From a virus, in the IMG/VR virus record IMGVR_UViG_3300046517_002304, positions 310,001 through 374,000 of that record: a DNA stretch of 64,000 nucleotides; one strand, 5' to 3'. The position numbers and the translations under genes were made by a program. The first letter of the stretch is position 1. Every line of letters begins with the position of its first letter. The notes below the pieces were generated by a model. That model saw only the letters and a list, made by a program, of their open reading frames with translations. It made no database searches and was not told the origin of the DNA. Of the stretch, positions 3,858 to 59,179 are shown one piece after another.

Positions 3858-4018
3858 GCCACCACTCCCATTTCGCGCAAGTTCGCAATGAACATTCCAA
3901 ACAGAACAGCAAATCCGACCGACACAAGTAGTCCAAGCAATCCATTAAGACTAAGCCAAGCCAGCAATGCTGCGGCCATTACTTCCGTCACAATGATTTG
4001 TTTGATGTGTGGTTTCAT
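3854..4018 (-). CDS. Membrane protein, 54 aa
   Basis: Read in the gap, ATGA-coupled at both ends. Two close hydrophobic segments (MAAALLAWLSLNGLLGLLV and GFAVLFGMFIANL) form a hairpin-like membrane protein. Function unknown. Confidence 0.75.
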   Translation of the reverse strand: MKPHIKQIIVTEVMAAALLAWLSLNGLLGLLVSVGFAVLFGMFIANLREMGVVA

Positions 4019-4677
4019 GCAAGCTCAGGATGGTTTTTGTATAGTTCATCCTTGATCTTGGCTAATTCCGTCATTGAAATTTCGTTTGGAAATCTTCCTA
4101 AGACATAACCATCGAAATAATACCGATACTCTGCCTTAGCTTTCATGCCATCGCTAAATACATAACATCCATTAGATTCAGGAAGCAGAACAGATGTTTC
4201 GGCCGGACCATCTGTTCTATGTCGGTTATCTTTATAATACCAACCCTCATGATACGTCCAACAAGAATTAGCAATGTAAGCAGGACCACCGACACGATGC
4301 CGTTGATTAAATTGATACCATTCTTTTGTCCCATTGGGATGGGTTATGGCAGGAAGATCATTATCTCTATGTAAGAGTCCATTTTGATACCACTCTTGAG
4401 TAATTTCATCTTTATATCTTGTAATAACTGCCGGTAAATCATTTTCACTATGCAATTCACCATTAGCATTGAACCACGACTCTTCAATCGCAGAACATCC
4501 CGCATCTTTTATAGTATGACACACATAACCATTTTTGGTTCCGATAACATCTTTTCCGTGTTTAAAATAAACAATTTTATCATCTATCCTTATATCTGCG
4601 AAAAGCTTCGGAAACGAAATCAGGCTTGCCGGAATTAAAGAAGACAATCCAGTGAGAATTTGACGACGATTAAGCAT
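4015..4677 (-). CDS. Tat-signal protein with HRxDGPA repeats, 220 aa
   Basis: Starts MLNRRQILTGLSS, a twin-arginine signal with a hydrophobic region and likely cleavage near residue 28. The mature part has five repeats of about 20 residues related to MORN-variant repeats (for example QEWYQNGLLHRDNDLPAI, then KEWYQFNQRHRVGGPA). One of eight Tat-signal proteins here. Likely exported folded through the host Tat system; ligand and role unknown. Confidence 0.75.
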   Translation of the reverse strand: MLNRRQILTGLSSLIPASLISFPKLFADIRIDDKIVYFKHGKDVIGTKNGYVCHTIKDAGCSAIEESWFNANGELHSENDLPAVITRYKDEITQEWYQNGLLHRDNDLPAITHPNGTKEWYQFNQRHRVGGPAYIANSCWTYHEGWYYKDNRHRTDGPAETSVLLPESNGCYVFSDGMKAKAEYRYYFDGYVLGRFPNEISMTELAKIKDELYKNHPELA

Positions 4678-8988: not shown

Positions 8989-9223
8989 TGCCACCAACCT
9001 TTATCTTGCGGTTTTCTTCTACTTGCATTTGAACTGCATGATAGCAATTTTTTACGCTATCTTCTCTATCGCAGCCATTGACATGGATTACCGGATTAAT
9101 ATCAAGGCAAACTGCTTCCATGCCGCTAGATAACACTAAAATATGAATTATACTATTCTCAACAACAACATGAACTAAATCACTGTCGTTGTTTAAATCA
9201 ATAATTCTGTTACGAAGCATCAC
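8975..9223 (-). CDS. Hypothetical protein, 82 aa
   Basis: Starts MMLRNRIIDLNNDSDLVHVV. Beta-rich first half, helix with DCDREDSVKN-like polar segment in the second half. ATGA overlap with 9220-9909. Function unknown. Confidence 0.65.
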   Translation of the reverse strand: MMLRNRIIDLNNDSDLVHVVVENSIIHILVLSSGMEAVCLDINPVIHVNGCDREDSVKNCYHAVQMQVEENRKIKVGGNDYS

Positions 9224-9909
9224 GCAACCTCAACCGAATGACCAAACACGTTTTCGCCGTTCATCTCACGAACGATGTCCCGAACTTCAAATACCCCAAG
9301 GTAAGAGATTTCATTGATGCTGTCACAAGCAACATCTCGGTAAATCACAGTCTTATCAAGACCCTGCCTGCCTTCCGGCTCCGGAGGAATGAAAGCCTCA
9401 ATTTCCGACTTAGGCACTTCTCGGAAATTAGGACTGACGGCAAAGTATTTAGACTTCGGATATCCACAGCAACAGATGGAAAGGTATCTGCGGTAAATGC
9501 CATCCTTATTGGTATGCTCAACCATATAAGGAGTTCCCGCCATCCTCACGCCCCAACTACGAGGCATAGCTTCAAAGTCGGATTCCTTGCCTTCCTTCTT
9601 CAGCCTGCCGTTGACCGCATTTTCATAATTAAAATCAACAATAGCCGTCAAATGAGTCTGCTTTACGATATTCCACTTCTTCTTAGGCTTATCCCAGAAT
9701 GGATTGCCAGTCTTGTGCAGATCCTTTGGAATCGTAGTGAAGTCCAGCCCAAGGACCACGGCTCCCTTGAGGTTTTTATCTGCTCTGTCTTGCATGATAT
9801 CCGCAAGAATTCCACTTACAGATTCAGCAGCATTGTTATAGTATTCTTGATTGTCCGCGTTGTTGCAGACCTCAACAATACTGGCAAGATTCAATTTGGG
9901 ATTGGGCAT
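9220..9909 (-). CDS. Hypothetical protein, 229 aa
   Basis: Well-formed protein starting MPNPKLNLASIVEVC with AAAGGA upstream. Middle part is beta-rich (GAVVLGLDFTTIP, HLTAIVDFNYENAV), with YLSICCCGYPKSKYF and an acidic C-terminus. First gene after the variant motif at 9931. No family recognised. Confidence 0.75.
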   Translation of the reverse strand: MPNPKLNLASIVEVCNNADNQEYYNNAAESVSGILADIMQDRADKNLKGAVVLGLDFTTIPKDLHKTGNPFWDKPKKKWNIVKQTHLTAIVDFNYENAVNGRLKKEGKESDFEAMPRSWGVRMAGTPYMVEHTNKDGIYRRYLSICCCGYPKSKYFAVSPNFREVPKSEIEAFIPPEPEGRQGLDKTVIYRDVACDSINEISYLGVFEVRDIVREMNGENVFGHSVEVA

Positions 9910-10325: not shown

Positions 10326-10661
10326 TTAAGAAATTCCACAAGCATTTAGAAGAAGTTTACGAAGCTCAATCATATTTGATTCGTGGTGTATACCAGATGA
10401 CATCCATTTATTATCGGCGGCATTTGCTATCGCAGATATTAGAACATCGGGAATACCTAATCTTTCACCAACGGACTGGTATGAGCTACATGGCCGATCT
10501 TTCAAGGCAGTTATCGGACAACAACTGCCTCCTTCTTGGAGCGAATTTCTAATAGGGGCCAATTCAGGAAAGGCTACGCCCCCCCATTTCAGGGACGACA
10601 CTCTGACATGCCAATTCCTTTTAGTCTTTCTTAAAGCGGCAATGAATTGTTTAAGATTCAT
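10326..10661 (-). CDS. MNLKQFIA family protein, 111 aa (family A)
   Basis: One of three paralogs (with 11139-11435 and 13746-14045). Shared layout: MNLKQFIAAL N-terminus, a NWHV strand, a CPIT motif near residue 50, a GIPDVLISAI-like helix and a C-terminal LRKLLLNACG. ATGA overlap with the upstream gene. The conserved CPIT suggests a functional Cys; function unknown. Confidence 0.75.
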   Translation of the reverse strand: MNLKQFIAALRKTKRNWHVRVSSLKWGGVAFPELAPIRNSLQEGGSCCPITALKDRPCSSYQSVGERLGIPDVLISAIANAADNKWMSSGIHHESNMIELRKLLLNACGIS

Positions 10662-11146
10662 ATCGCCGCTCCCGCATACATTGCCGCCGGATTTTTCAGG
10701 AAGTCTTTCATCCTAGCAACAACCATTTGTCTTGTAATAGGTCTTTTAGCATACATTCTTACGCCGAATAAATATTCAACGTCTTCATAGCTTAATTTTA
10801 AAATTTTTGCCAGTGTATACTTGGCTGTTTTCCACGTATCAGGATAAGGAAGATCAGTATTACGAGGCGAAGCGTTAATAGCTTCGTCAAAAGTCATACC
10901 GATTGGAATAACGAATGGCTGGCTCTGAGTAGGATGTGATTCATATTTACATAGATCAGGAAACGCTATAGGCAAATGTCCTCCAACGCACCCAGTTGTG
11001 CCACAACCTTCAGGATTTAACAAATCGCAAAAAGGATCATGTGTTCCACGGTAAGGAACACTCAGCACATAATTCATATCAAAGTGCTTGTCAAGAATTA
11101 TATTCTCAACAAAGCGAATGAGTTGTTTGAATCTGGTCTTATGCAT
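10658..11146 (-). CDS. CGTxxCxxGHLP family protein, 162 aa (family B)
   Basis: Paralog of 17688-18227. Shared core: a Gly-Cys-Gly-Thr-x-x-Cys-x-x-Gly-His-Leu-Pro motif followed by an aromatic FPDLCKYE helix, and a C-terminal EDVEYLFGV helix. The Cys/His spacing suggests metal binding, though only three ligands are evident. ATG at 11146 fits GGAG best; 11152 also possible. Confidence 0.75.
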   Translation of the reverse strand: MHKTRFKQLIRFVENIILDKHFDMNYVLSVPYRGTHDPFCDLLNPEGCGTTGCVGGHLPIAFPDLCKYESHPTQSQPFVIPIGMTFDEAINASPRNTDLPYPDTWKTAKYTLAKILKLSYEDVEYLFGVRMYAKRPITRQMVVARMKDFLKNPAAMYAGAAI

Positions 11147-11435
11147 TTTCATTTACTCCACAGGCATCTAGTAAAAGTTTACGGAGTTCAAACATGTTGC
11201 TAGTATGATGACACTCCAATACCATATTGTCAGCAGCGTGAACAATCGCTGTGATTAATACGTTTGGCAATCCAACGGAAATGCCGACTTCATCAAATTG
11301 CTGGCAGTCCGCACCCTGTAGTGATGTAATCGGACAAGAAAAATTATCATCGTCTCTAAGAATACTTTTAACTTTAGAAACATGCCAATGCTTATTGGCA
11401 TTCTTAAGTTCGGCAATGAATTGTTTGAGGTTCAT
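11139..11435 (-). CDS. MNLKQFIA family protein, 98 aa (family A)
   Basis: Second family A copy: MNLKQFIAELKNANKHWHV, CPITSLQGADC, GLPNVLITAIVHAADN and LRKLLLDACG. Flanks the family B gene together with 10326-10661. Function unknown. Confidence 0.75.
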   Translation of the reverse strand: MNLKQFIAELKNANKHWHVSKVKSILRDDDNFSCPITSLQGADCQQFDEVGISVGLPNVLITAIVHAADNMVLECHHTSNMFELRKLLLDACGVNENA

Positions 11436-11885: not shown

Positions 11886-11974
11886 AACCGTCTCCGACCC
11901 CTGTGCAACTATCGGCCTATGCATGTCCGTTTCTTACGCCTGCACACTATTAACATGCACACTTTTTACGGTTT
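11885..11974 (-). other. Closed RNA structure in a unit gap
   Basis: Arms AAACCGT (11968-11974, overlapping the stop region of 11966-12166) and ACGGTTT (11885-11891) can pair over seven bases and enclose about 75 bases, with inner CCGA/TCGG pairing. No ORF lies inside. It could be a terminator or processing element at the unit end. Confidence 0.35.
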
Positions 11975-12166
11975 AGCTTTGCTTATTGCTTCGCTTTCGC
12001 TATTAGCCATTCCAGTCCACTTTACGGAATAGCTCATGTCGCCAAGTTGTTTGCGGCAATAGCGGCAACGCGGGAATCTATTTTTGGGAACTGGAGAACG
12101 CCCCCAGTAGTAGGATGCGCAGTCGCAATTAACTCTCAGCACCCAATAATAGAATTTCTTCGTCAC
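11966..12166 (-). CDS. Zinc-ribbon-like protein, 66 aa
   Basis: GTG start shares a base with the TAG of the TatA-like gene (TAGTG). Contains NCDCASYYWG, then CRYCRKQLGD, a probable four-Cys zinc ribbon. Ends in a helical SESEAISKAKP. Translationally coupled to the TatA-like gene; role unknown. Confidence 0.7.
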   Translation of the reverse strand: MTKKFYYWVLRVNCDCASYYWGRSPVPKNRFPRCRYCRKQLGDMSYSVKWTGMANSESEAISKAKP

Positions 12167-12336
12167 TAGGACTTGATGGCTTTATTGACTTCGCTGACAG
12201 TCGTCTTGACTTCGTCTTCAACGCCGCTCAGTCCCTTCTTGAATTGGACAAAGCTGCTGCCGACGCTGCGGGCGATTCCTGGAAGCTTGTTCCCGAACAG
12301 AACTGTCCCGACCAAAAGCACCAGTCCGATTTCCAT
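12166..12336 (-). CDS. tatA: TatA/Hcf106-like twin-arginine translocase subunit
   Basis: 56 aa from the ATG at 12336: MEIGLVLLVGTVLFGNKLP is the short TatA membrane span, then the FG hinge and LP, then the amphipathic helix GIARSVGSSFVQFKKGLSG with the FKKG hallmark, then a charged tail. TatA multimers form the pore-like element of the Tat pathway in the cytoplasmic membrane. The frame stays open upstream, and an ATT at 12354 would give MFGISYMEIG, the usual TatA N-terminus, at good spacing from GAGAG. No TatB or TatC in the window. It fits the eight Tat-signal proteins encoded nearby. Confidence 0.85.
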   Translation of the reverse strand: MEIGLVLLVGTVLFGNKLPGIARSVGSSFVQFKKGLSGVEDEVKTTVSEVNKAIKS

Positions 12337-12407
12337 GTAAGAAATTCCGAAAATGATTGCATCTCTCTTTCTTTATTGAGTGATTGAACGCGGGTTTTGT
12401 AATGTAT

Positions 12408-12419
12408 TATGGATAACTA
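12408..12419 (-). promoter_or_regulatory. Boundary motif, copy 8
   Basis: Exact copy, heading the TatA-like unit. 71 bases before the ATG at 12336 (53 before the possible ATT start). Its TAG ends 12417-12950. Confidence 0.8.
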
Positions 12420-12950
12420 AAGTTTTGAACCAGAAATCATAAACGCAATCGGTAAAGTAAATCTTTTTTTACCGATATCAAGTTTAATTTCCTCGCCTAA
12501 TAAACCATCAATCCATTTCTCATTAAATTGCTGTTCGCTGACAAAAGTGTTTATATCATTTCCCATATAAGAATTTATCACATGATAAAGATCATGGTCA
12601 ACTCCTACAAGATTCATTGCGTGTATACTTAGTTTGCCACACTTATTGCGCTTGGCCACATCACTTTGTTCCGCACCTAAAATAATACAAGTATAATTCT
12701 TAAGCAAATACTTTTTTAAGCTGGCGATTGTTTTTAAGCCATCAATCACAATTACATCATGTTCAATAAACATTGCATTAACAGCGCTATAAAGCTGGCG
12801 AAACTCACGGCTTTCAACTTGACCGCCCATTGCATTTTGGATGCGGTCTATATCTATCGATTTCTCCATACATGCCGCAGCATTATAAATTGCAGTAGGT
12901 ACGCATTCGTATTCTCTACAAGTAGAGCGAATTGTTATATCGGTTCGCAT
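12417..12950 (-). CDS. C39-like cysteine peptidase-related protein, 177 aa
   Basis: CREYECVPTAIYNAAACM near residue 10 places a Cys at the head of a helix as in C39/papain-like folds. LSIHAMNLVGVDHDLYHVIN near residue 110 supplies the His with a following Asp/Asn. C39-like domains cut double-glycine leaders or bind them. No signal peptide or transporter domain. Adjacent to the TatA-like gene across a motif. Catalysis is plausible, not shown. Confidence 0.55.
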   Translation of the reverse strand: MRTDITIRSTCREYECVPTAIYNAAACMEKSIDIDRIQNAMGGQVESREFRQLYSAVNAMFIEHDVIVIDGLKTIASLKKYLLKNYTCIILGAEQSDVAKRNKCGKLSIHAMNLVGVDHDLYHVINSYMGNDINTFVSEQQFNEKWIDGLLGEEIKLDIGKKRFTLPIAFMISGSKL

Positions 12951-13193
12951 TTAATCTCGGCTTTTGAGATGGCAGCGAGAGTAGATTGCCGTTAGAATAT
13001 GAGTTACAAGATCATTTGGCCCGGCGGTTACAGGAACAAACTTAAGTTTAAATCCTTCTGTGCTTGCTGGCTTACCAGCTACACAGAAATCAAAGTTCCC
13101 GCGACGGCGCAGTTTGCCGAAGCTATCTCGCAACTCATAACGGCCAGTTTGGCCGAATCCCTTTGAATCAGTGGTGGGGAAGATAGCTGTCAT
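12951..13193 (-). CDS. RYELRD family protein, 80 aa (family F)
   Basis: Paralog of 19921-20115: both have a Gly-rich lead-in, R[YW]ELR[DN]xxG[KR]L, a RGxxxFC strand and a downstream strand. A small beta domain of unknown function. ATGA-type junction with 13190-13756 upstream. Confidence 0.7.
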   Translation of the reverse strand: MTAIFPTTDSKGFGQTGRYELRDSFGKLRRRGNFDFCVAGKPASTEGFKLKFVPVTAGPNDLVTHILTAIYSRCHLKSRD

Positions 13194-13756
13194 GACTTAA
13201 AGAACTCAACCAGCGAAGCTTTAACGAATTCATCATTACTTACTTGAACTCCATTAATCCAATATTCTTCTGTACGAGTCCTGGAATCAGGGAGATATAT
13301 TTTTGCAGGTCCGTTAAGGCGATGAAGTTTCCCATTCTGCCACCATGCCGTAAGGCTTTTTGTTTCTACGGCAGGACCACCTATACGGTGAGGTCTTCCA
13401 TGCTGGTACCATTTTTTTTGGAGGATTTCTCCGTCAAGACTCTCTATAAAGGCAGGAGCGCCTGCACAATGCACGCTTCCCGTATCGTCGTAATGTGTTT
13501 CATGAATAAAATCACAGGAATTTCTTATTACTCGCTTCGGCTCACCATTTGAATAAAACCAAGCTTCTTTAAATCTAGTTTTTTTATAAACAACTAGCCC
13601 ATCACAGACCCCGTAAACATTGCCATTTAATTTCCCATACACAATTTCTTCCTTTTTAACTTCTGGTTCAGGGATAACTACCGCTTTAACTTCATTCTTG
13701 CCGAAGAATGAAAGCAAGCCAACGGGAAAAATGCTAAGGAAATTTCTACGCTGCAT
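13190..13756 (-). CDS. Tat-signal protein with HRxDGPA repeats, 188 aa
   Basis: ATG at 13756 with AAGGG eight bases upstream gives MQRRNFLSIFPVGLLSFFG, a twin-arginine signal with a VKA-type cleavage region. The mature part has a strand-rich domain, then four or so repeats ending in ..HRIGGPAVE and LHRLNGPAKIY. Overlaps the preceding family A gene by 11 bases. Probably exported folded; role unknown. Confidence 0.75.
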   Translation of the reverse strand: MQRRNFLSIFPVGLLSFFGKNEVKAVVIPEPEVKKEEIVYGKLNGNVYGVCDGLVVYKKTRFKEAWFYSNGEPKRVIRNSCDFIHETHYDDTGSVHCAGAPAFIESLDGEILQKKWYQHGRPHRIGGPAVETKSLTAWWQNGKLHRLNGPAKIYLPDSRTRTEEYWINGVQVSNDEFVKASLVEFFKS

Positions 13757-14045
13757 TTTTGATTCCCTTAAGACCACAGGCGTCTAAAAGAAGATTGCGA
13801 AGTTCTCTAATGTTCGGATCGTGTTGGCAGTGATTATCGGCCGCTACGACGATTGCCTGTCGTAACTCTTCCGGTATTCCAAGTTTTATACTAATGATAT
13901 ACCAATCACTAAAAGGTTTGTTTTCTAACGATGAAATTGGGCAACAATACTCGTAGTCGCAAGTTCTAATTTTGTTTTCAATTAATGATAATTGCCACTT
14001 TTTATTAGTGGCCTTCAGGGCGGCGATAAATTGTTTGAGGTTCAT
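13746..14045 (-). CDS. MNLKQFIA family protein, 99 aa (family A)
   Basis: ATG at 14045 (MNLKQFIAALKATNKKW) in ATGA overlap with 14042-14353. Third family A copy, with CCPISSLENKPFSDW, GIPEELRQAIVVAADNH and LRNLLLDACGL. Function unknown. It sits between two HRxDGPA-repeat proteins. Confidence 0.75.
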   Translation of the reverse strand: MNLKQFIAALKATNKKWQLSLIENKIRTCDYEYCCPISSLENKPFSDWYIISIKLGIPEELRQAIVVAADNHCQHDPNIRELRNLLLDACGLKGIKNAA

Positions 14046-14353
14046 GGTTTTTCGCGTCTCTGAAAATGACCGTTTAAATACCATTCTTTTGTACCGTTTG
14101 CTTGAATTACGGCAGGACCGCCTTTACGGTGAGGCTTACCATGCTTATACCATGCTTGCAAGCCGTCAGAGAAAATTATTGCTGGCCCATCTTCTCTGTG
14201 CAACTCTCCGTCTTCGTCAAACCAGCGTTGAACTCCGTCCTCGTCTACTGAATGAACGATTTTATTTTTTACTTGATGTTCGCTATCCTCAACCGGATGC
14301 TCAAAAGTAAATATCCGAACAGCAAGCAACAAAGAGAAAATGCTCGTTTGCAT
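14042..14353 (-). CDS. Short HRxDGPA-repeat protein with non-Tat signal, 103 aa
   Basis: N-terminus MQTSIFSLLLAVRIFTF is a short hydrophobic signal without a twin arginine. Then three repeats: QRWFDEDGELHREDGPAII, QAWYKHGKPHRKGGPAVI and KEWYLNGHFQRREKP. Looks like a shortened family member that has lost or swapped its Tat signal. 18 bases after the motif at 14372. Confidence 0.7.
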   Translation of the reverse strand: MQTSIFSLLLAVRIFTFEHPVEDSEHQVKNKIVHSVDEDGVQRWFDEDGELHREDGPAIIFSDGLQAWYKHGKPHRKGGPAVIQANGTKEWYLNGHFQRREKP

Positions 14354-30921: not shown

Positions 30922-31136
30922 TCGGCACTTCCAGTTAGAATAGAGAAGTCTTTAGGCAGATTAAATTCTTCTGCCGTATCTTTGCTTGGCGATGTTATGC
31001 CGGAAATGTTAACGAGTAATCCATGATCGGCAAACGCGCTAGGAAGCACGTAGAGAATCGCCGGACCATCCAGATTAGCATCTGGAATCGCATTGGCCGC
31101 GTCCCGCAGTTGCCTAAGAGTGATATTTTTTAACAT
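30918..31136 (-). CDS. Hypothetical protein, 72 aa
   Basis: Starts MLKNITLRQLRDAANAIPDA, a helix followed by strands (AILYVLPSAF, GLLVNISGIT). This layout recurs in phage proteins with LRxAxxxIPD. Overlaps 31114-31719 by 23 bases. Function unknown. Confidence 0.65.
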   Translation of the reverse strand: MLKNITLRQLRDAANAIPDANLDGPAILYVLPSAFADHGLLVNISGITSPSKDTAEEFNLPKDFSILTGSAE

Positions 31137-31719
31137 ATATCGCGGCCTTAATATGTGCTCGCTGTAGTTCAGTTAATTGATGCTGCGTATCAAGAATGGC
31201 CTGTAAATGATCTATATCACAGTCCACCAATCGCTTCCATCGGAAGTGCTCTTTGCCGCTCTTTCCGTAGGTTCCCCACAATTTAAACCCATTTTCATCT
31301 ACGTAAAATCCATCTACAACACGAAAAGGTTGCGCGGAATCATCTTCCTCTATTTCTTTAACTGGCGACTCTATTTTCACGCTAAGATGTTCAGGAAGTT
31401 CTGGAAACTTAATTGGTTGCCAGCAAATAACCGATCCATCTGGAAACGAACCCCATGACGACGAACGCCAGTGCATATTTTCATAACGTCCTTTACGAAC
31501 ATATGGTAAGTCTACATTTTCCGTATTGTGTTTAACAACTATAAAGCACTCTTCTTTATTGTCTGGCAATTCATCCTTGCAATAAATCCAGTCATCATTG
31601 CTAATTTCTGGAATATCCACTTTTACTTTAGGAGTATCGGCATTATTAGCCTTGCAGCCCCCAATAAATGGAAGCAGACCAGCCAACGGAAGCGATGATA
31701 GAAAATTTCTGCGTTTCAT
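31114..31719 (-). CDS. Tat-signal lipoprotein, 201 aa
   Basis: MKRRNFLSSLPLAGLLPFIGG then Cys at residue 22: a twin-arginine signal whose LPFIGGC end is also a lipobox, so the protein would be exported by Tat and lipid-anchored. No HRxDGPA repeats. The mature part has WIYCKDELPDNKEECFIVVK then GSVICWQPIKFPELP, like a DUF551-type fold, and a basic C-terminus. Role at the envelope unknown. Confidence 0.75.
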   Translation of the reverse strand: MKRRNFLSSLPLAGLLPFIGGCKANNADTPKVKVDIPEISNDDWIYCKDELPDNKEECFIVVKHNTENVDLPYVRKGRYENMHWRSSSWGSFPDGSVICWQPIKFPELPEHLSVKIESPVKEIEEDDSAQPFRVVDGFYVDENGFKLWGTYGKSGKEHFRWKRLVDCDIDHLQAILDTQHQLTELQRAHIKAAIYVKKYHS

Positions 31720-47566: not shown

Positions 47567-47578
47567 TATGGGTAACTA
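47567..47578 (-). promoter_or_regulatory. Boundary motif variant (one mismatch)
   Basis: TAGTTACCCATA, 33 bases before the ATG at 47533. Its TAG ends 47576-47974. Confidence 0.65.
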
Positions 47579-47974
47579 AGAATGATGAAGGTTGTTAAAT
47601 TCTTCTTCGGTAATGTGCCTTGTAACTGGATAGGCGTTTACGTAAAGTGGTTGCCCAAGAAAATTTTGGTAGTAAGATTTATACCCTATGCCATTATAAT
47701 ACCATCGTTGAACACCGCCACACGCAGAAGAATAAATAGCAGGCAAATCATCATCACAATGAATTTGGCCTTCTTTGTTAAAATAAGTCTTTTCCACCGA
47801 GCATTTTTGCCAAACTACAATTCCATCACGAACGCAATAAGTCATTTCCCCTCTTTTAAACTTAATAAACTTAGATTTCTTGGCAAGAATCTCTGGCTTA
47901 CTTTCCGCCTTTGCAAATGGCAAGAAAGAAAGCAATCCAGCAGGAATGAATGCAAGGAAATTACGTCGCAGCAT
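47576..47974 (-). CDS. Tat-signal protein with a short HRxDGPA-like repeat, 132 aa
   Basis: MLRRNFLAFIPAGLLSFLPF then AKA at the likely cleavage site: a complete twin-arginine signal. The mature part keeps one clear repeat (KTYFNKEGQIHCDDDLPAIY) and a degraded second (QRWYYNGIGYKSYYQ). Shortest Tat member. The last gene of its unit; the tRNA lies between it and the secreted proteins. Confidence 0.75.
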   Translation of the reverse strand: MLRRNFLAFIPAGLLSFLPFAKAESKPEILAKKSKFIKFKRGEMTYCVRDGIVVWQKCSVEKTYFNKEGQIHCDDDLPAIYSSACGGVQRWYYNGIGYKSYYQNFLGQPLYVNAYPVTRHITEEEFNNLHHS

Positions 47975-48042
47975 TTGATTGTTCCTGAAAATTAACGAGA
48001 TTCATTTTTGCGTAAAGCTTTGTTGCTGTTAGAATCTCAAAT

Positions 48043-48116
48043 GGCTGTGGTCAGATTTGAACTGACGATCTCAAGGTTATGGGCCTCGCGGGGACTCCAG
48101 GCTCCCCCACACAGCG
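48043..48116 (-). tRNA. tRNA-Met (CAT), initiator-like
   Basis: Full cloverleaf of 74 bases. Acceptor pairs 2-71 to 7-66 are intact; the 1-72 pair is C-C, unpaired as in bacterial initiators. D arm GGGG/CCCC has G11-C24 (initiator-type purine-pyrimidine). Anticodon arm CGAGG-CCCATAA-CCTTG, T arm GTCAG-TTCAAAT-CTGAC, A73, no CCA encoded. Anticodon CAT with C33 in place of the near-universal T33. The anticodon stem has only two of the three initiator G-C pairs. Confidence 0.88.
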
Positions 48117-49862: not shown

Positions 49863-50465
49863 TTAAACAAAACCTCGCGCCTTGCACGGTGCAATCAATT
49901 CGCGAAATGATTCAAGATCACACACAAAAAACCTATGACCTTTATAAAACCACTGTGTAAACGCCGGAAACTTATCGTCTTCTATTGCAGGCCCATCTTC
50001 ACGATGTCTGTTGCCATTGAAATACCATTCTCTTACTCCACATGGGTCAACAATCGCTGGCCCATCTTCACGATGACATATGCCATTTTTGAGCCACTCT
50101 TTCCTGCCGTCAGAATGAATAACGGCCGGGCCATTATCTCGGTGGCACACTCCATTTTTAAACCATGAACAATAACCGTCACGCCTCATTATTGCAGGCA
50201 AATCACCGTCTCTGTGAATTTGTCCTTTTTTATTATAAAAAGTAATTTCGCCCCTAACGGTGCTTTCTATGGTCTTATAAACCACTCCATCTACCGCACA
50301 TAAAATTAAATCGCCAAGCATAACTGAATCTGGAATAGCAGAAACAGCATCAAGCGCAACATTCATTTCGCCAAATTCAACGTGAGCATCTTCTGCCTTA
50401 ACCTTAAAAGACAGCATGCCAATCAACGCCGAGGGTATAAAGGAAAGTAGAGTTCTTCTCTTCAT
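49863..50465 (-). CDS. Tat-signal protein with HRxDGPA repeats, 200 aa
   Basis: MKRRTLLSFIPSALIGMLSF then KVKAED: a twin-arginine signal with a clear cleavage region. Four repeats, for example CSWFKNGVCHRDNGPAVI, KEWLKNGICHREDGPAIV and REWYFNGNRHREDGPAIE. The regular spacing of 20-21 residues suggests an elongated beta sheet. Function unknown. Confidence 0.8.
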   Translation of the reverse strand: MKRRTLLSFIPSALIGMLSFKVKAEDAHVEFGEMNVALDAVSAIPDSVMLGDLILCAVDGVVYKTIESTVRGEITFYNKKGQIHRDGDLPAIMRRDGYCSWFKNGVCHRDNGPAVIHSDGRKEWLKNGICHREDGPAIVDPCGVREWYFNGNRHREDGPAIEDDKFPAFTQWFYKGHRFFVCDLESFRELIAPCKARGFV

Positions 50466-50892: not shown

Positions 50893-51519
50893 TTACTTAA
50901 CATCTTGCAAATAACGCTGAGTTTCAGCATCAATTCTTCCTTGTCTTGGAGTATTATCTTTATGATCCCATAACCATTTATGAGCAGGAATTCTAAAATC
51001 ATACTGTTCTTCATTTATTCCATATCCATAAAGATACCATGCCCGCCAGCCGGTTGTTGGGCTTGTAATGGCCGGGCCATCTTCACGATGACGCTCGCCG
51101 TTCTGATACCAAAATTCATCGCCACAGCTATAATAATGAGCGGGTCCACCATCACGATGCCTCTCGCCATTTTTATACCACACAAACTCGCCCCATCCAA
51201 ATTCAATAGCCGGACCATCTTCCCTGTGTCGTATTCCGTTAATAAACCATTCTTTGCTACCTTGCCAACCCTCTACCGCCGGACCATCATTTCTGTGAAG
51301 TTCTCCGGAAGAATTATAGTAACGCTTTGTACCGTAACGGTCAGTGCGACAACCACTCCCCCATCCAGGTGGTATTTCAGAATGAGTTAATTTAATAACG
51401 AAATTATCCGCCTTAGTAATTGATTCCGGCGCAACTTCAGTTGCTTTAGTTTCTTTCACAGAGAAGAAACCGGCAAACAGGCCAGCAGGAATTAATCCAA
51501 GGAAATTTCTACGCTTCAT
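50893..51519 (-). CDS. Tat-signal protein with HRxDGPA repeats, 208 aa
   Basis: MKRRNFLGLIPAGLFAGFFS is a twin-arginine signal. Four or five repeats: KRYYNSSGELHRNDGPAVE, KEWFINGIRHREDGPAIE, FVWYKNGERHRDGGPAHY and EFWYQNGERHREDGPAIT, then a helical tail. Two bases from the next upstream gene. Function unknown. Confidence 0.8.
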   Translation of the reverse strand: MKRRNFLGLIPAGLFAGFFSVKETKATEVAPESITKADNFVIKLTHSEIPPGWGSGCRTDRYGTKRYYNSSGELHRNDGPAVEGWQGSKEWFINGIRHREDGPAIEFGWGEFVWYKNGERHRDGGPAHYYSCGDEFWYQNGERHREDGPAITSPTTGWRAWYLYGYGINEEQYDFRIPAHKWLWDHKDNTPRQGRIDAETQRYLQDVK

Positions 51520-54219: not shown

Positions 54220-55041
54220 TCAAACCTTATGCACTTTATTTTCGTATAGGTAGTATACAGGAACTGGGAACTTCTGTCTAGACAGAAATTGATGAATTTC
54301 GTCCAAAGCATACCTGATTGAAATATGGTACAGGAACAAAGCATCAATCCTTTTATTTTTAATAACTTCCATTACACCATCAAAAGACGAATGAACATCG
54401 TATTTGATATCGTTTTTGTTTAAAAACGTACATTCATGGCAGAAAATACCACCGTCATACTCACCGTACTTGTCCAACGGAACCGTATCGCCTGAATACG
54501 TAAGCAATCCATGCTTGTAATCATTCGTAATCGGCGTTCCAGACTGCTTAAGTCTAATGATTTCGTCTACAGGAGCACAGCTATATTCTTCCTTTAACTT
54601 TCTGCGAACCTCGAATAACTGAAATCCAAGCGTAAGCGCGCCTTCAATATGCCTGCCTGGGAAACAATATACATATAGGTTTCTTCCTACTTCAACAACC
54701 TGATGTGCATCTACGGCAATCCACTCAATCTGGAATTGCGTATTATTGATTTCCTGCTCAAGATAAACCTTCATCTTAATAACACCCAAACTGCCCTTGG
54801 GATAAATAATTCTAAGAGGCTTATTGTTGTGGCCCTTACCAAATTCTCTTGCGTGAAAGAAACTTGGAAGACCAGATATATGATCTAAGTGACCATGAGA
54901 CAGCAGAATCGTTTCAACAGCGAAAATGCGTTCTTTAAGATTAAATGCGCACCCTTCGCCGCAATCAAAGAGGATACGGCTTGGCTGATGAAAAAGCCAC
55001 GTAGCATAGCCAGCCAATGAGCAACCTTCAAGATTCAGCAT
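54220..55041 (-). CDS. rnz: RNase Z (tRNA 3'-processing endonuclease), 273 aa
   Basis: Metallo-beta-lactamase motifs in order: IILFDCGEG-like FDCGEGCAFN, SHGHLDHISGLPSF (HxHxDH), PGRHIEGALTLGFQLFE, YSGDT, then CHECTF and LYHISIRYALDEI, the RNase Z C-terminal HxSxRY motif. It removes the 3' trailer of tRNA precursors, and the phage tRNA here lacks an encoded CCA, the usual RNase Z substrate. ATG seven bases after the motif at 55049, with no ribosome-binding sequence. Confidence 0.88.
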   Translation of the reverse strand: MLNLEGCSLAGYATWLFHQPSRILFDCGEGCAFNLKERIFAVETILLSHGHLDHISGLPSFFHAREFGKGHNNKPLRIIYPKGSLGVIKMKVYLEQEINNTQFQIEWIAVDAHQVVEVGRNLYVYCFPGRHIEGALTLGFQLFEVRRKLKEEYSCAPVDEIIRLKQSGTPITNDYKHGLLTYSGDTVPLDKYGEYDGGIFCHECTFLNKNDIKYDVHSSFDGVMEVIKNKRIDALFLYHISIRYALDEIHQFLSRQKFPVPVYYLYENKVHKV

Positions 55042-55988
55042 TTGTTTTTATGGATAACTATTTTGTTAGTTTTTAAATCCATGCTCATTAAGGATGTGCA
55101 TGGACCAACTATTTTCACTTTAGGATTATATACAATGCCTTTGCATTGTGTATATAAAAGCTTATCGTTCTCCCAATATTCCTTAACACCATTACTCCAC
55201 TCTACTGCCGGACCACCCACTCTATGCTGCAATCCATGTTTATGCCATGCCTTATATCCGCCCCTCATAATTACGGCAGGGCCGTCTTCTCGGTGTAAAT
55301 TACCATGAAAATACCATTCTTTCGTTCCATTGGTGTATTCGCAAGCCGGACCGGCTGCTCTATGTGGTTTATTATTAAAATACCAAATATTAGTTCCGTT
55401 TTCTTCCTCAATCGCCGGACCATCCTCACGATGAAGCATTCCGAGCTGCATCCACCTTTTTTGTCCGGATGCATATATTATGGCTGGACCTCCTATCCGA
55501 TGACACTGCCCATGATTCATCCAAGTAGTAGAAGATGGATTGATACGAGCAGGCCCATCTTCCCGATGGTATCTGCCATCTTCATCAAACCAAGACTCTT
55601 CATCATAATGTCCGCTTAACTTAAAATACCTTTTCTTTCCATTTATAAAACCGATTTTAATATCTTGACGACTTGAATCAGAATATTCTACATACTCCAT
55701 ATATTCTTTTTGTTCAGGCAATCCAAGCTTCTCTACATTAATGCCGCAAGTATAGATGAAATTTATAAGTTTATTTCTAAAGAAAGCCGAATCCTTAATA
55801 TCAAACTGTTCTTCGGCAGATTTCATAAACTCTTCATCGCACTCCTGTTTTTGAGTAAAAGCATAAACATTCTTAATATAAGAAATATAAAGCTTATCCT
55901 TCTTCGTGAAAGATTCCTTATCCACTCCTGTAGAAAGGAATGAAAGAAAGCCGGTCGGCAACAGTGAGAGGAAACTTCTTCGTAGCAT
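55035..55988 (-). CDS. Tat-signal protein with seven HRxDGPA repeats, 317 aa
   Basis: ATG at 55988: MLRRSFLSLLPTGFLSFLST, a twin-arginine signal. A helical domain of about 90 residues follows, then seven repeats (SWFDEDGRYHREDGPARI, MNHGQCHRIGGPAII, QLGMLHREDGPAIE, YFNNKPHRAAGPACE, YFHGNLHREDGPAVI and so on), the longest array here. The last codons read across the motif at 55049. Probably an exported, rod-like binding protein. Confidence 0.82.
   Translation of the reverse strand: MLRRSFLSLLPTGFLSFLSTGVDKESFTKKDKLYISYIKNVYAFTQKQECDEEFMKSAEEQFDIKDSAFFRNKLINFIYTCGINVEKLGLPEQKEYMEYVEYSDSSRQDIKIGFINGKKRYFKLSGHYDEESWFDEDGRYHREDGPARINPSSTTWMNHGQCHRIGGPAIIYASGQKRWMQLGMLHREDGPAIEEENGTNIWYFNNKPHRAAGPACEYTNGTKEWYFHGNLHREDGPAVIMRGGYKAWHKHGLQHRVGGPAVEWSNGVKEYWENDKLLYTQCKGIVYNPKVKIVGPCTSLMSMDLKTNKIVIHKNKC
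55049..55060 (-). promoter_or_regulatory. Boundary motif, copy 27
   Basis: Exact copy, 7 bases before the RNase Z ATG at 55041, inside the last codons of 55035-55988. Confidence 0.8.
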
Positions 55989-58510: not shown

Positions 58511-58639
58511 TTATTGCTTGGAATGCTCAAAATGCTTATCGTGTGATTCAAAGCAATGAAAAACGTAAGGTAGATTTGTATTTTCATTTAATTGATCGAA
58601 ATGAATCTCGTTGAGATTTTCCAGTCTGATTCTTCGCAT
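58511..58639 (-). CDS. Small protein, 42 aa
   Basis: Read in a 230-base gap. MRRIRLENLNEIHFDQLNEN, then YVFHCFESHDKHFEHSKQ with five His and one Cys. No strong ribosome site. A weaker call than the other small genes. Confidence 0.5.
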   Translation of the reverse strand: MRRIRLENLNEIHFDQLNENTNLPYVFHCFESHDKHFEHSKQ

Positions 58640-58721
58640 GATAGGCTACATTCATCTTGATGTTCGCATTCTTTGCTTAATTTTTAAAAGCCGTCCAGTT
58701 TTTAGACTAGCTTACGTTGTT

Positions 58722-58958
58722 TTAGATTAGCTCAACTTCTATCGGCTGAACTTCGATTCTATTTTCAAAATCAGCCATAAACCTTCTAAGAACTCTGGGT
58801 GTCACGAATTGCTTTTCGTCTATCTGAATATAAAATCCACCAGCGAAAATCTTAGTCCCTTTCGGAACTACGTCCTTAATTGCCAAGGCAGTAGGACAAG
58901 TACTGGTCCCTCTTCTGCTGCCTTTAGCGATATGTTTTTCTGTGATGGAGAATTTCAT
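58722..58958 (-). CDS. HIxxG...CPxALA family protein, 78 aa
   Basis: ATG at 58958 in ATGA overlap with 58955-59179. KHIAKGSRRGTSTCPTALAI matches 45494-45787, then strands (GTKIFAGGFYIQIDEKQFVT) and a helix. Function unknown. Confidence 0.7.
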   Translation of the reverse strand: MKFSITEKHIAKGSRRGTSTCPTALAIKDVVPKGTKIFAGGFYIQIDEKQFVTPRVLRRFMADFENRIEVQPIEVELI

Positions 58959-59179
58959 GCTTGTCGCCATGCCCGAAAATGAATCCAACTAGCCATTCTA
59001 AAAATGGCATACGGCAGGATAAACGGAAACGTAACAGGCGAAAGAATAAAAAATCTAGCCCATTGATCTTCATTTTTGGCACAGCCACTTCTGTAGGCCG
59101 AAAGCCAAATTAAGCCGCATACAATGTAAGAAATAACAAAGTAGTATGGATCGCAGTAGACCTCAATTTTCGGCATCAT
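58955..59179 (-). CDS. Membrane protein, 74 aa
   Basis: Two spans: YFVISYIVCGLIWLSAYRSG and FFILSPVTFPFILPYAIFRM. Resembles 58175-58474 in layout and in the ILSPVTF segment (IISPITF there), so a likely paralog. Function unknown. Confidence 0.7.
   Translation of the reverse strand: MMPKIEVYCDPYYFVISYIVCGLIWLSAYRSGCAKNEDQWARFFILSPVTFPFILPYAIFRMASWIHFRAWRQA

Follow-up and report, generated by a model that had tools for sequence, protein, structure and literature searches.

Phages use holins and the Sec export of their hosts. In Tat export, the twin-arginine signal is read by TatC; TatA is then recruited by TatC and lets the folded cargo through by weakening or opening the membrane (PMC6708511, PMC9527704). 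As described in PMC9527704, an active TatA has a polar residue, a 12-residue hydrophobic stretch with a terminal Phe, a Gly and a second helix, and its C-terminal tail is dispensable. No report of a phage TatA, alone or with cargo, was found in open-access papers (subscription papers fell outside the search), in agreement with the earlier note on this DNA, which knew of no well-described phage tatA; one TatC annotation from a marine virus was retrieved (PMC10564846).

The window, i.e. the whole stretch of 64,000 nucleotides that was analysed, corresponds to bases 310001-374000 of a virus record of 511,233 bases (IMGVR_UViG_3300046517_002304), which may be incomplete. Genes for a T4-type major capsid protein (E = 2.8e-86), a portal, a ribonucleotide reductase, a DNA polymerase and a helicase are present in this record. 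Judged from these genes, the carrier of tatA is a T4-like megaphage, and capsid and portal bear out the earlier view that the gene is phage-encoded. The record has one TatA, and no TatC was seen across its 511 kb, as far as the record is complete. The relatives of the phage identified by its capsid are short contigs, unable to show the tatA region. Outside the window, the record has matches to PrkA kinase, DUF444 and SpoVR, which together make up the YeaG-YeaH-YcgB stress operon of bacteria, as well as an aldehyde dehydrogenase and a class III aminotransferase. The sole tRNA in the window is a tRNA-Met (CAT) at 48042-48116 (-).

Table 1. Features around the phage tatA, predicted Tat cargo of the window and further contigs carrying tatA
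Feature	Coordinates	Strand	Remarks
Phage tatA	12166..12336	-	56 aa from ATG; stop TAG 12166-12168; Pfam, conserved frame, predicted helices
Possible N-terminal extension (M)FGISY	12337..12354	-	ATT start at 12354, 62-aa product; in-frame reading, alignment to MFGIGPMEL
66-aa CxC...CxxC (zinc-ribbon-like) ORF	11966..12166	-	GTG start shares one base with tatA stop
Gene upstream of tatA, 177 aa	12417..12950	-	Cys/His pattern reminiscent of cysteine peptidases, by eye only
13-nt element TTAGTTATCCATA ahead of tatA	12408..12420	-	Overlaps stop codon of upstream gene
Predicted Tat cargo, MLNRRQILTGLSSLIPASLISFPKLFA	4015..4677	-	
Predicted Tat cargo, MQRRNFLSIFPVGLLSFFGKNEVKA	13190..13756	-	HRxxGPA repeats
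Predicted Tat cargo, MKRRNFFAAIPAMFASVGLIKPIVAA	14381..15124	-	
Predicted Tat cargo, MKRRNFLSSLPLAGLLPFIGGC	31114..31719	-	Possible lipobox; weak DUF551 resemblance
Predicted Tat cargo, MLRRNFLAFIPAGLLSFLPFAKA	47576..47974	-	Paralogue of other cargo
Predicted Tat cargo, MKRRTLLSFIPSALIGMLSFKVKA	49863..50465	-	HRxDGPA repeats
Predicted Tat cargo, MKRRNFLGLIPAGLFAGFFSVKETKA	50893..51519	-	Putative MORN-like repeat fold; fold matches MORN proteins
Predicted Tat cargo, MLRRSFLSLLPTGFLSFLSTG	55035..55988	-	HRxDGPA repeats; signal-peptidase site unclear
tatA contig G001/L002, 107 kb	95609-96610		Tat-signal protein
tatA contig G002/L073, 129 kb	116488-116733, 118547-119026, 58569-59063		Terminase and portal; Tat-signal proteins
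tatA contig G003/L074, 56 kb	9119-9544		Tat-signal protein
tatA contigs G004-G005/L096-L097			Two overlapping contigs, one phage type; major head protein; G005 Tat signal on papain-like protein

The tatA product (MEIGLVLLVGTVLFGNKLPGIARSVGSSFVQFKKGLSGVEDEVKTTVSEVNKAIKS, 56 codons; Table 1) matches the Pfam family PF02416 (TatA_B_E) with E = 5.7e-10 and 38.7 bits, compared to a cut-off of 21, the alignment covering residues 6-54 of a 64-aa reading and positions 1-50 of the 53 of the profile. Among the NCBIfam models, TIGR01411 (tatAE) scores highest, ahead of TIGR01410 (tatB), with 37.4 and 25.3 bits, respectively, and by these scores the product is a TatA/E and not a TatB. The curated cut-off of TIGR01411 is 53.9 bits; since four of five planctomycete chromosomal TatAs likewise remain below it (43-48 bits), this cut-off is not decisive here. 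A profile built from ten phage and planctomycete TatAs retrieves solved TatA structures (2mn6, E = 2e-10). The membrane-span region reads E-IGLVLLVGTVLF-G, i.e. a polar residue, a 12-residue span ending in Phe and a Gly hinge, and across 11 aligned TatAs the residues L, F, G, L, P, R, S and G are invariant. The predicted model consists of helix 6-20, a break and helix 24-61 in 62-aa numbering, with a mean pLDDT of 74. The features given for an active TatA (PMC9527704) are kept in the phage protein, which, based on profiles and motifs, is a true member of the TatA family. The earlier note had called the 56-residue product TatA-like, citing an FG hinge, LPxxARS in an amphipathic helix and FKKG: the HMM check has now been run with the result given above, LFG, LPGIARS and FKKG are all found, and the second helix is modelled, its amphipathy not having been computed.

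Compared to the TatAs of other phage contigs, 21-24 of 44 residues are identical in the tatA frame, with an excess of third-position changes, and the five alternative frames of the region give fewer identities between phages. Expression solely from another frame, which the earlier note had named as a refutation, can be ruled out, the TatA frame being the one conserved between phages. The start codon is less clear. No stop codon interrupts the frame over the 11 codons 5' of the ATG at 12336, but none of these is a usual start codon either, and the in-frame codons leading into the ATG are ATC-ATT-TTC-GGA-ATT-TCT-TAC-ATG. When FGISYME of the window is aligned to FGIGPME of L073, the L073 ATG coincides with the ATT at 12354; this ATT also lines up with the Met at which other TatAs begin (MFGIGPMEL). 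The real product may be 62 aa via a non-AUG start at ATT 12354 or 56 aa via ATG 12336.

An 80-bp gap separates tatA from the upstream gene, for which no Pfam family match was found and whose stop codon is overlapped by a 13-nt element, TTAGTTATCCATA, that precedes many genes of this phage. In the form TAGTTATCCATA, 51 minus-strand copies are present in the record, and a start codon often follows after 16-22 nt; AGTTATCCATA has 54 copies compared to 0-1 in random sequence. The distance from TTAGTTATCCATA to tatA, about 80 nt, is longer than the usual 16-22 nt, and the element is possibly a promoter or processing element. Since tatA follows both this gap and a recurrent element, it can be seen as part of the phage's own regulatory layout, which supports the earlier proposal that it heads its own unit. 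The TAGTG coupling to a zinc-ribbon gene holds as far as the overlap is real and CxC and CxxC are present, but this 66-aa Cys-rich ORF has no Pfam or PHROG match and no relative among the sequences fetched. Between 260 and 407 kb of the record, the minus strand has some 50 copies of TTAGTTATCCATA, in the window e.g. at 12408-12420, 14380, 16034, 20830 and 30678, and at 260-275 kb of the record the element makes inverted repeats with ATGGATAACT. Three paralogues of 98-112 aa starting with MNLKQFIA(A/E)L are located at 10326-10661, 11139-11435 and 13746-14084 (-) of the window; one of them was scanned against Pfam without a match.

What the earlier reader overlooked is the predicted Tat cargo of the phage itself. 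Canonical twin-arginine signal peptides (M-K-RR-N-F-L...) were observed on about 11 predicted proteins of the record, eight of them in the window. These meet the criteria of RR-x-F-L near the N terminus, an uncharged h-region and an AxA-like site, e.g. MKRRNFLGLIPAGLFAGFFSVKETKA and MLRRNFLAFIPAGLLSFLPFAKA. The PF10518 Tat-signal model, too insensitive here, gave no match across the record; TIGR01409 reached at best 16.6 bits against a cut-off of 16.7 (for a G002 protein), and 12.8 and 13.7 bits for two others. The majority of the cargo proteins carry putatively MORN-like HRxDGPA repeats and are mutually paralogous. For the cargo at 50893-51519, the model has a pLDDT > 90 over the repeats and is poor elsewhere. 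Its best PDB matches are MORN proteins (E ~1e-3, prob 1.0, TM 0.3-0.4), it also matches many phage proteins, and a neighbouring protein that shares the repeat scores below the cut-off of Pfam MORN_2. Relatives of the HRxDGPA repeat proteins in five tatA-less viral contigs keep the repeats and have no signal peptide.

The pairing of tatA with Tat cargo was observed to recur in four further phage types, with TatAs of 44-77 aa and each with at least one Tat-signal protein. In L074, a 78-aa gene stands between tatA and the cargo gene, all three being linked into one operon by ATGA overlaps; in L073, cargo genes lie on either side of tatA, ~1 kb upstream and 0.6 kb downstream; in G001, tatA and its cargo gene are 25 kb apart. 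Cargo genes adjoin tatA in three of the five phages, and for the proximity of tatA to cargo on four contigs a combined p = 0.004 of arising by chance was obtained. No TatC was found in G001, the only one of the other tatA phages searched. G004/G005 had been regarded as cargo-less, which was rejected as MKRREFLKLTAIGFVGAKFLSSG is present; the fixed signal rule missed it because of a Lys in the h-region. The papain-like family to which some cargo belongs has an invariant Gln, Cys, His and Ser-Trp-Gly and weakly matches cathepsin H (E = 0.008); Tat signals are found on its members in L127, L177 and L178 and on none in G001 and G002. Phage members of the family, only some with a Tat signal, were noted at L127:6006-7016, L177:2817-3815, L178:6928-7944, L088:8843-9796 (-) and L078:14554-15462, with the gene less than 10 kb from the terminase in L177 and L178. 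A different N terminus, of the type IV pilin methylation kind common in Planctomycetota, is present at L018:17797-18843 (-) (MKNRKAFTVVELIIVISVILVLMGLLVPAVNGVR, PF07963 at its cut-off).

We consider it reasonably probable that the phage TatA acts together with host TatC, increasing Tat capacity or adapting it to cargo made by the phage, a function that is inferred and not shown. A T4-like megaphage would have acquired a minimal TatA from a planctomycete-type host. During infection this protein would insert into the inner membrane, its N terminus facing outwards; once a twin-arginine pre-protein of the phage had bound, host TatC would recruit the phage TatA, whose oligomers would let the folded cargo cross the membrane. 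As no TatC is seen in the record, host TatC would be needed. The cargo would comprise the MORN-like repeat proteins encoded by the phage and some unrelated proteins. The likely gain for the phage is either capacity, TatA being the most abundant Tat subunit, or a better fit to its cargo. Assembly with host TatC, actual export, the benefit and the function of the cargo remain inferences, and any role of the cargo outside the cytoplasm, such as superinfection exclusion, envelope modification or proteolysis, is a guess. The earlier idea that the host Tat pore is boosted or retuned is strengthened by the predicted cargo in the record and in four other phage types, but boost and retuning are indistinguishable and transport has not been shown.

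Using one fixed rule, 20 RR signals were counted in 969 kb of contigs with tatA versus 2 in 986 kb without (rate test, p = 6e-5), while KK/KR/RK control pairs under the same rule are not enriched (15 versus 13). The RR counts are not independent, because the cargo genes of the record are largely paralogues, and some of the 20 matches are doubtful ORFs. The control contigs were not host-matched and are not known to infect Planctomycetota. In addition, L177 and L178, fragments related to G002, have Tat-signal proteins with no tatA seen, so such cargo may manage with host TatA, and Tat cargo may be common in the phages of these hosts, tatA being an addition in some. These fragments are also compatible with an unlikely alternative, namely that the phage TatA acts in altered or dominant-negative form to retune or block host Tat, with a change in the host proteins exported, the RR proteins of the phage being incidental users of the pathway. 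The very short forms (44-56 aa), and the possible loss of N-terminal residues if ATG 12336 is used, would fit this as well. However, the polar residue, the 12-residue span, Phe-Gly and the second helix needed for activity are kept, cargo genes lie next to tatA in most of the five phages, and blocking Tat would hurt the export of the phage's own cargo.

A boost directed at the host, in which extra TatA raises the export of host enzymes aiding infection and RR cargo is secondary, is judged less plausible still. It is conceivable because no Tat component is more abundant than TatA, and because TatE can take the place of TatA in E. coli (PMC6708511); it leaves unexplained why cargo genes recur beside phage tatA.

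Regarding the origin, 44 of the 45 cellular TatA relatives found are in Planctomycetota, in a search that used patterns from two phage TatAs and favours close relatives. In a TatA tree, the viral TatAs are placed among planctomycete ones, and one capture versus several is not resolved; the present TatA has a long branch and an unresolved position. The host is probably, not certainly, a planctomycete. A search for isolate-phage relatives gave no match for the TatAs of the window and L073, and one unannotated contig each for those of L002 and L096 (one an UNVERIFIED record of a Staphylococcus phage, the other a fecal record of 6.8 kb); E. coli TatA, used as a yardstick, matched only phage-filed records resembling bacterial contigs. 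The planctomycete affinity, long branch and unresolved position would also be expected from a host gene gained by chance, under little selection and without function for the phage. This is hard to reconcile with a protein conserved in its coding frame, a phage-wide 5' element ahead of the gene, its presence in five phage types and its ATGA coupling to other genes in L074, and we regard it as improbable. Weakest of all is a holin-like permeabiliser in which the TatA fold would bring about lysis, or release without lysis. Although TpeE holins resemble TatA in combining a short span with an amphipathic helix, and both may weaken membranes in a similar manner (PMC9527704), the sequence is that of a TatA at every conserved position, TpeE has no sequence similarity to TatA (PMC9527704), Pfam and PHROG scans of the tatA ORF gave no holin family, no endolysin was identified beside tatA (the sole PHROG hint being 9220-9909, E = 0.09) and the tatA neighbours in other phages are Tat cargo.

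The reading of a phage TatA working with host TatC can be extended, more tentatively and with somewhat less than even confidence, to an export module for Tat that travels with the phage: where the hosts are Planctomycetota-like, phages would carry a minimal TatA dedicated to their own cargo (MORN-repeat, papain-like and others), which together with host TatC would give folded proteins a phage-specific route out of the cytoplasm. If true, export would be taken over in a new way, by a phage that brings both a translocase subunit for folded proteins and the cargo to match. The phage TatAs provide a ready test of the smallest working TatA (44-62 aa) and naturally occurring pairs of TatA and cargo, perhaps adapted to each other, and they draw attention to uncharacterised proteins which phages may deliver to the periplasm or the surface of planctomycetes. 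While TatA as such is a familiar protein, the new element would be a phage TatA with its own cargo, none having been reported in the open-access literature found.

Among known systems, the NCBI phage-filed records with tatA (Acinetobacter phage MD-2021a, Salmonella entries) likewise combine a TatA sequence with a phage label; they were rejected as phage tatA, as organism name, length and annotation look like those of bacterial contigs. The HRxDGPA/MORN-like proteins of Agrobacterium phage Atu_ph07 and uncultured Caudovirales have the same repeat and fold as the cargo described here; those relatives that were examined are without a signal peptide, whereas the versions of this phage carry Tat signals. 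Holins of the TpeE/BhlA type resemble the phage TatA in a short span followed by an amphipathic helix, in being phage-related and in the proposed weakening of membranes, but differ in having no sequence similarity to TatA (PMC9527704). The marine virus (PMC10564846) likewise has a Tat component in its genome, as a single annotation; this is a TatC and not a TatA, and the passage found describes no cargo. The closest counterpart is bacterial TatA/TatE (PF02416, TIGR01411), in particular its planctomycete branch, which agrees in length class, polar residue, 12-residue span, Phe-Gly hinge, LPGxxRS, FKKG and two-helix model, while the version described here has no tatC in its record, a short C-terminal tail and possibly a non-AUG start, and is encoded by a phage.
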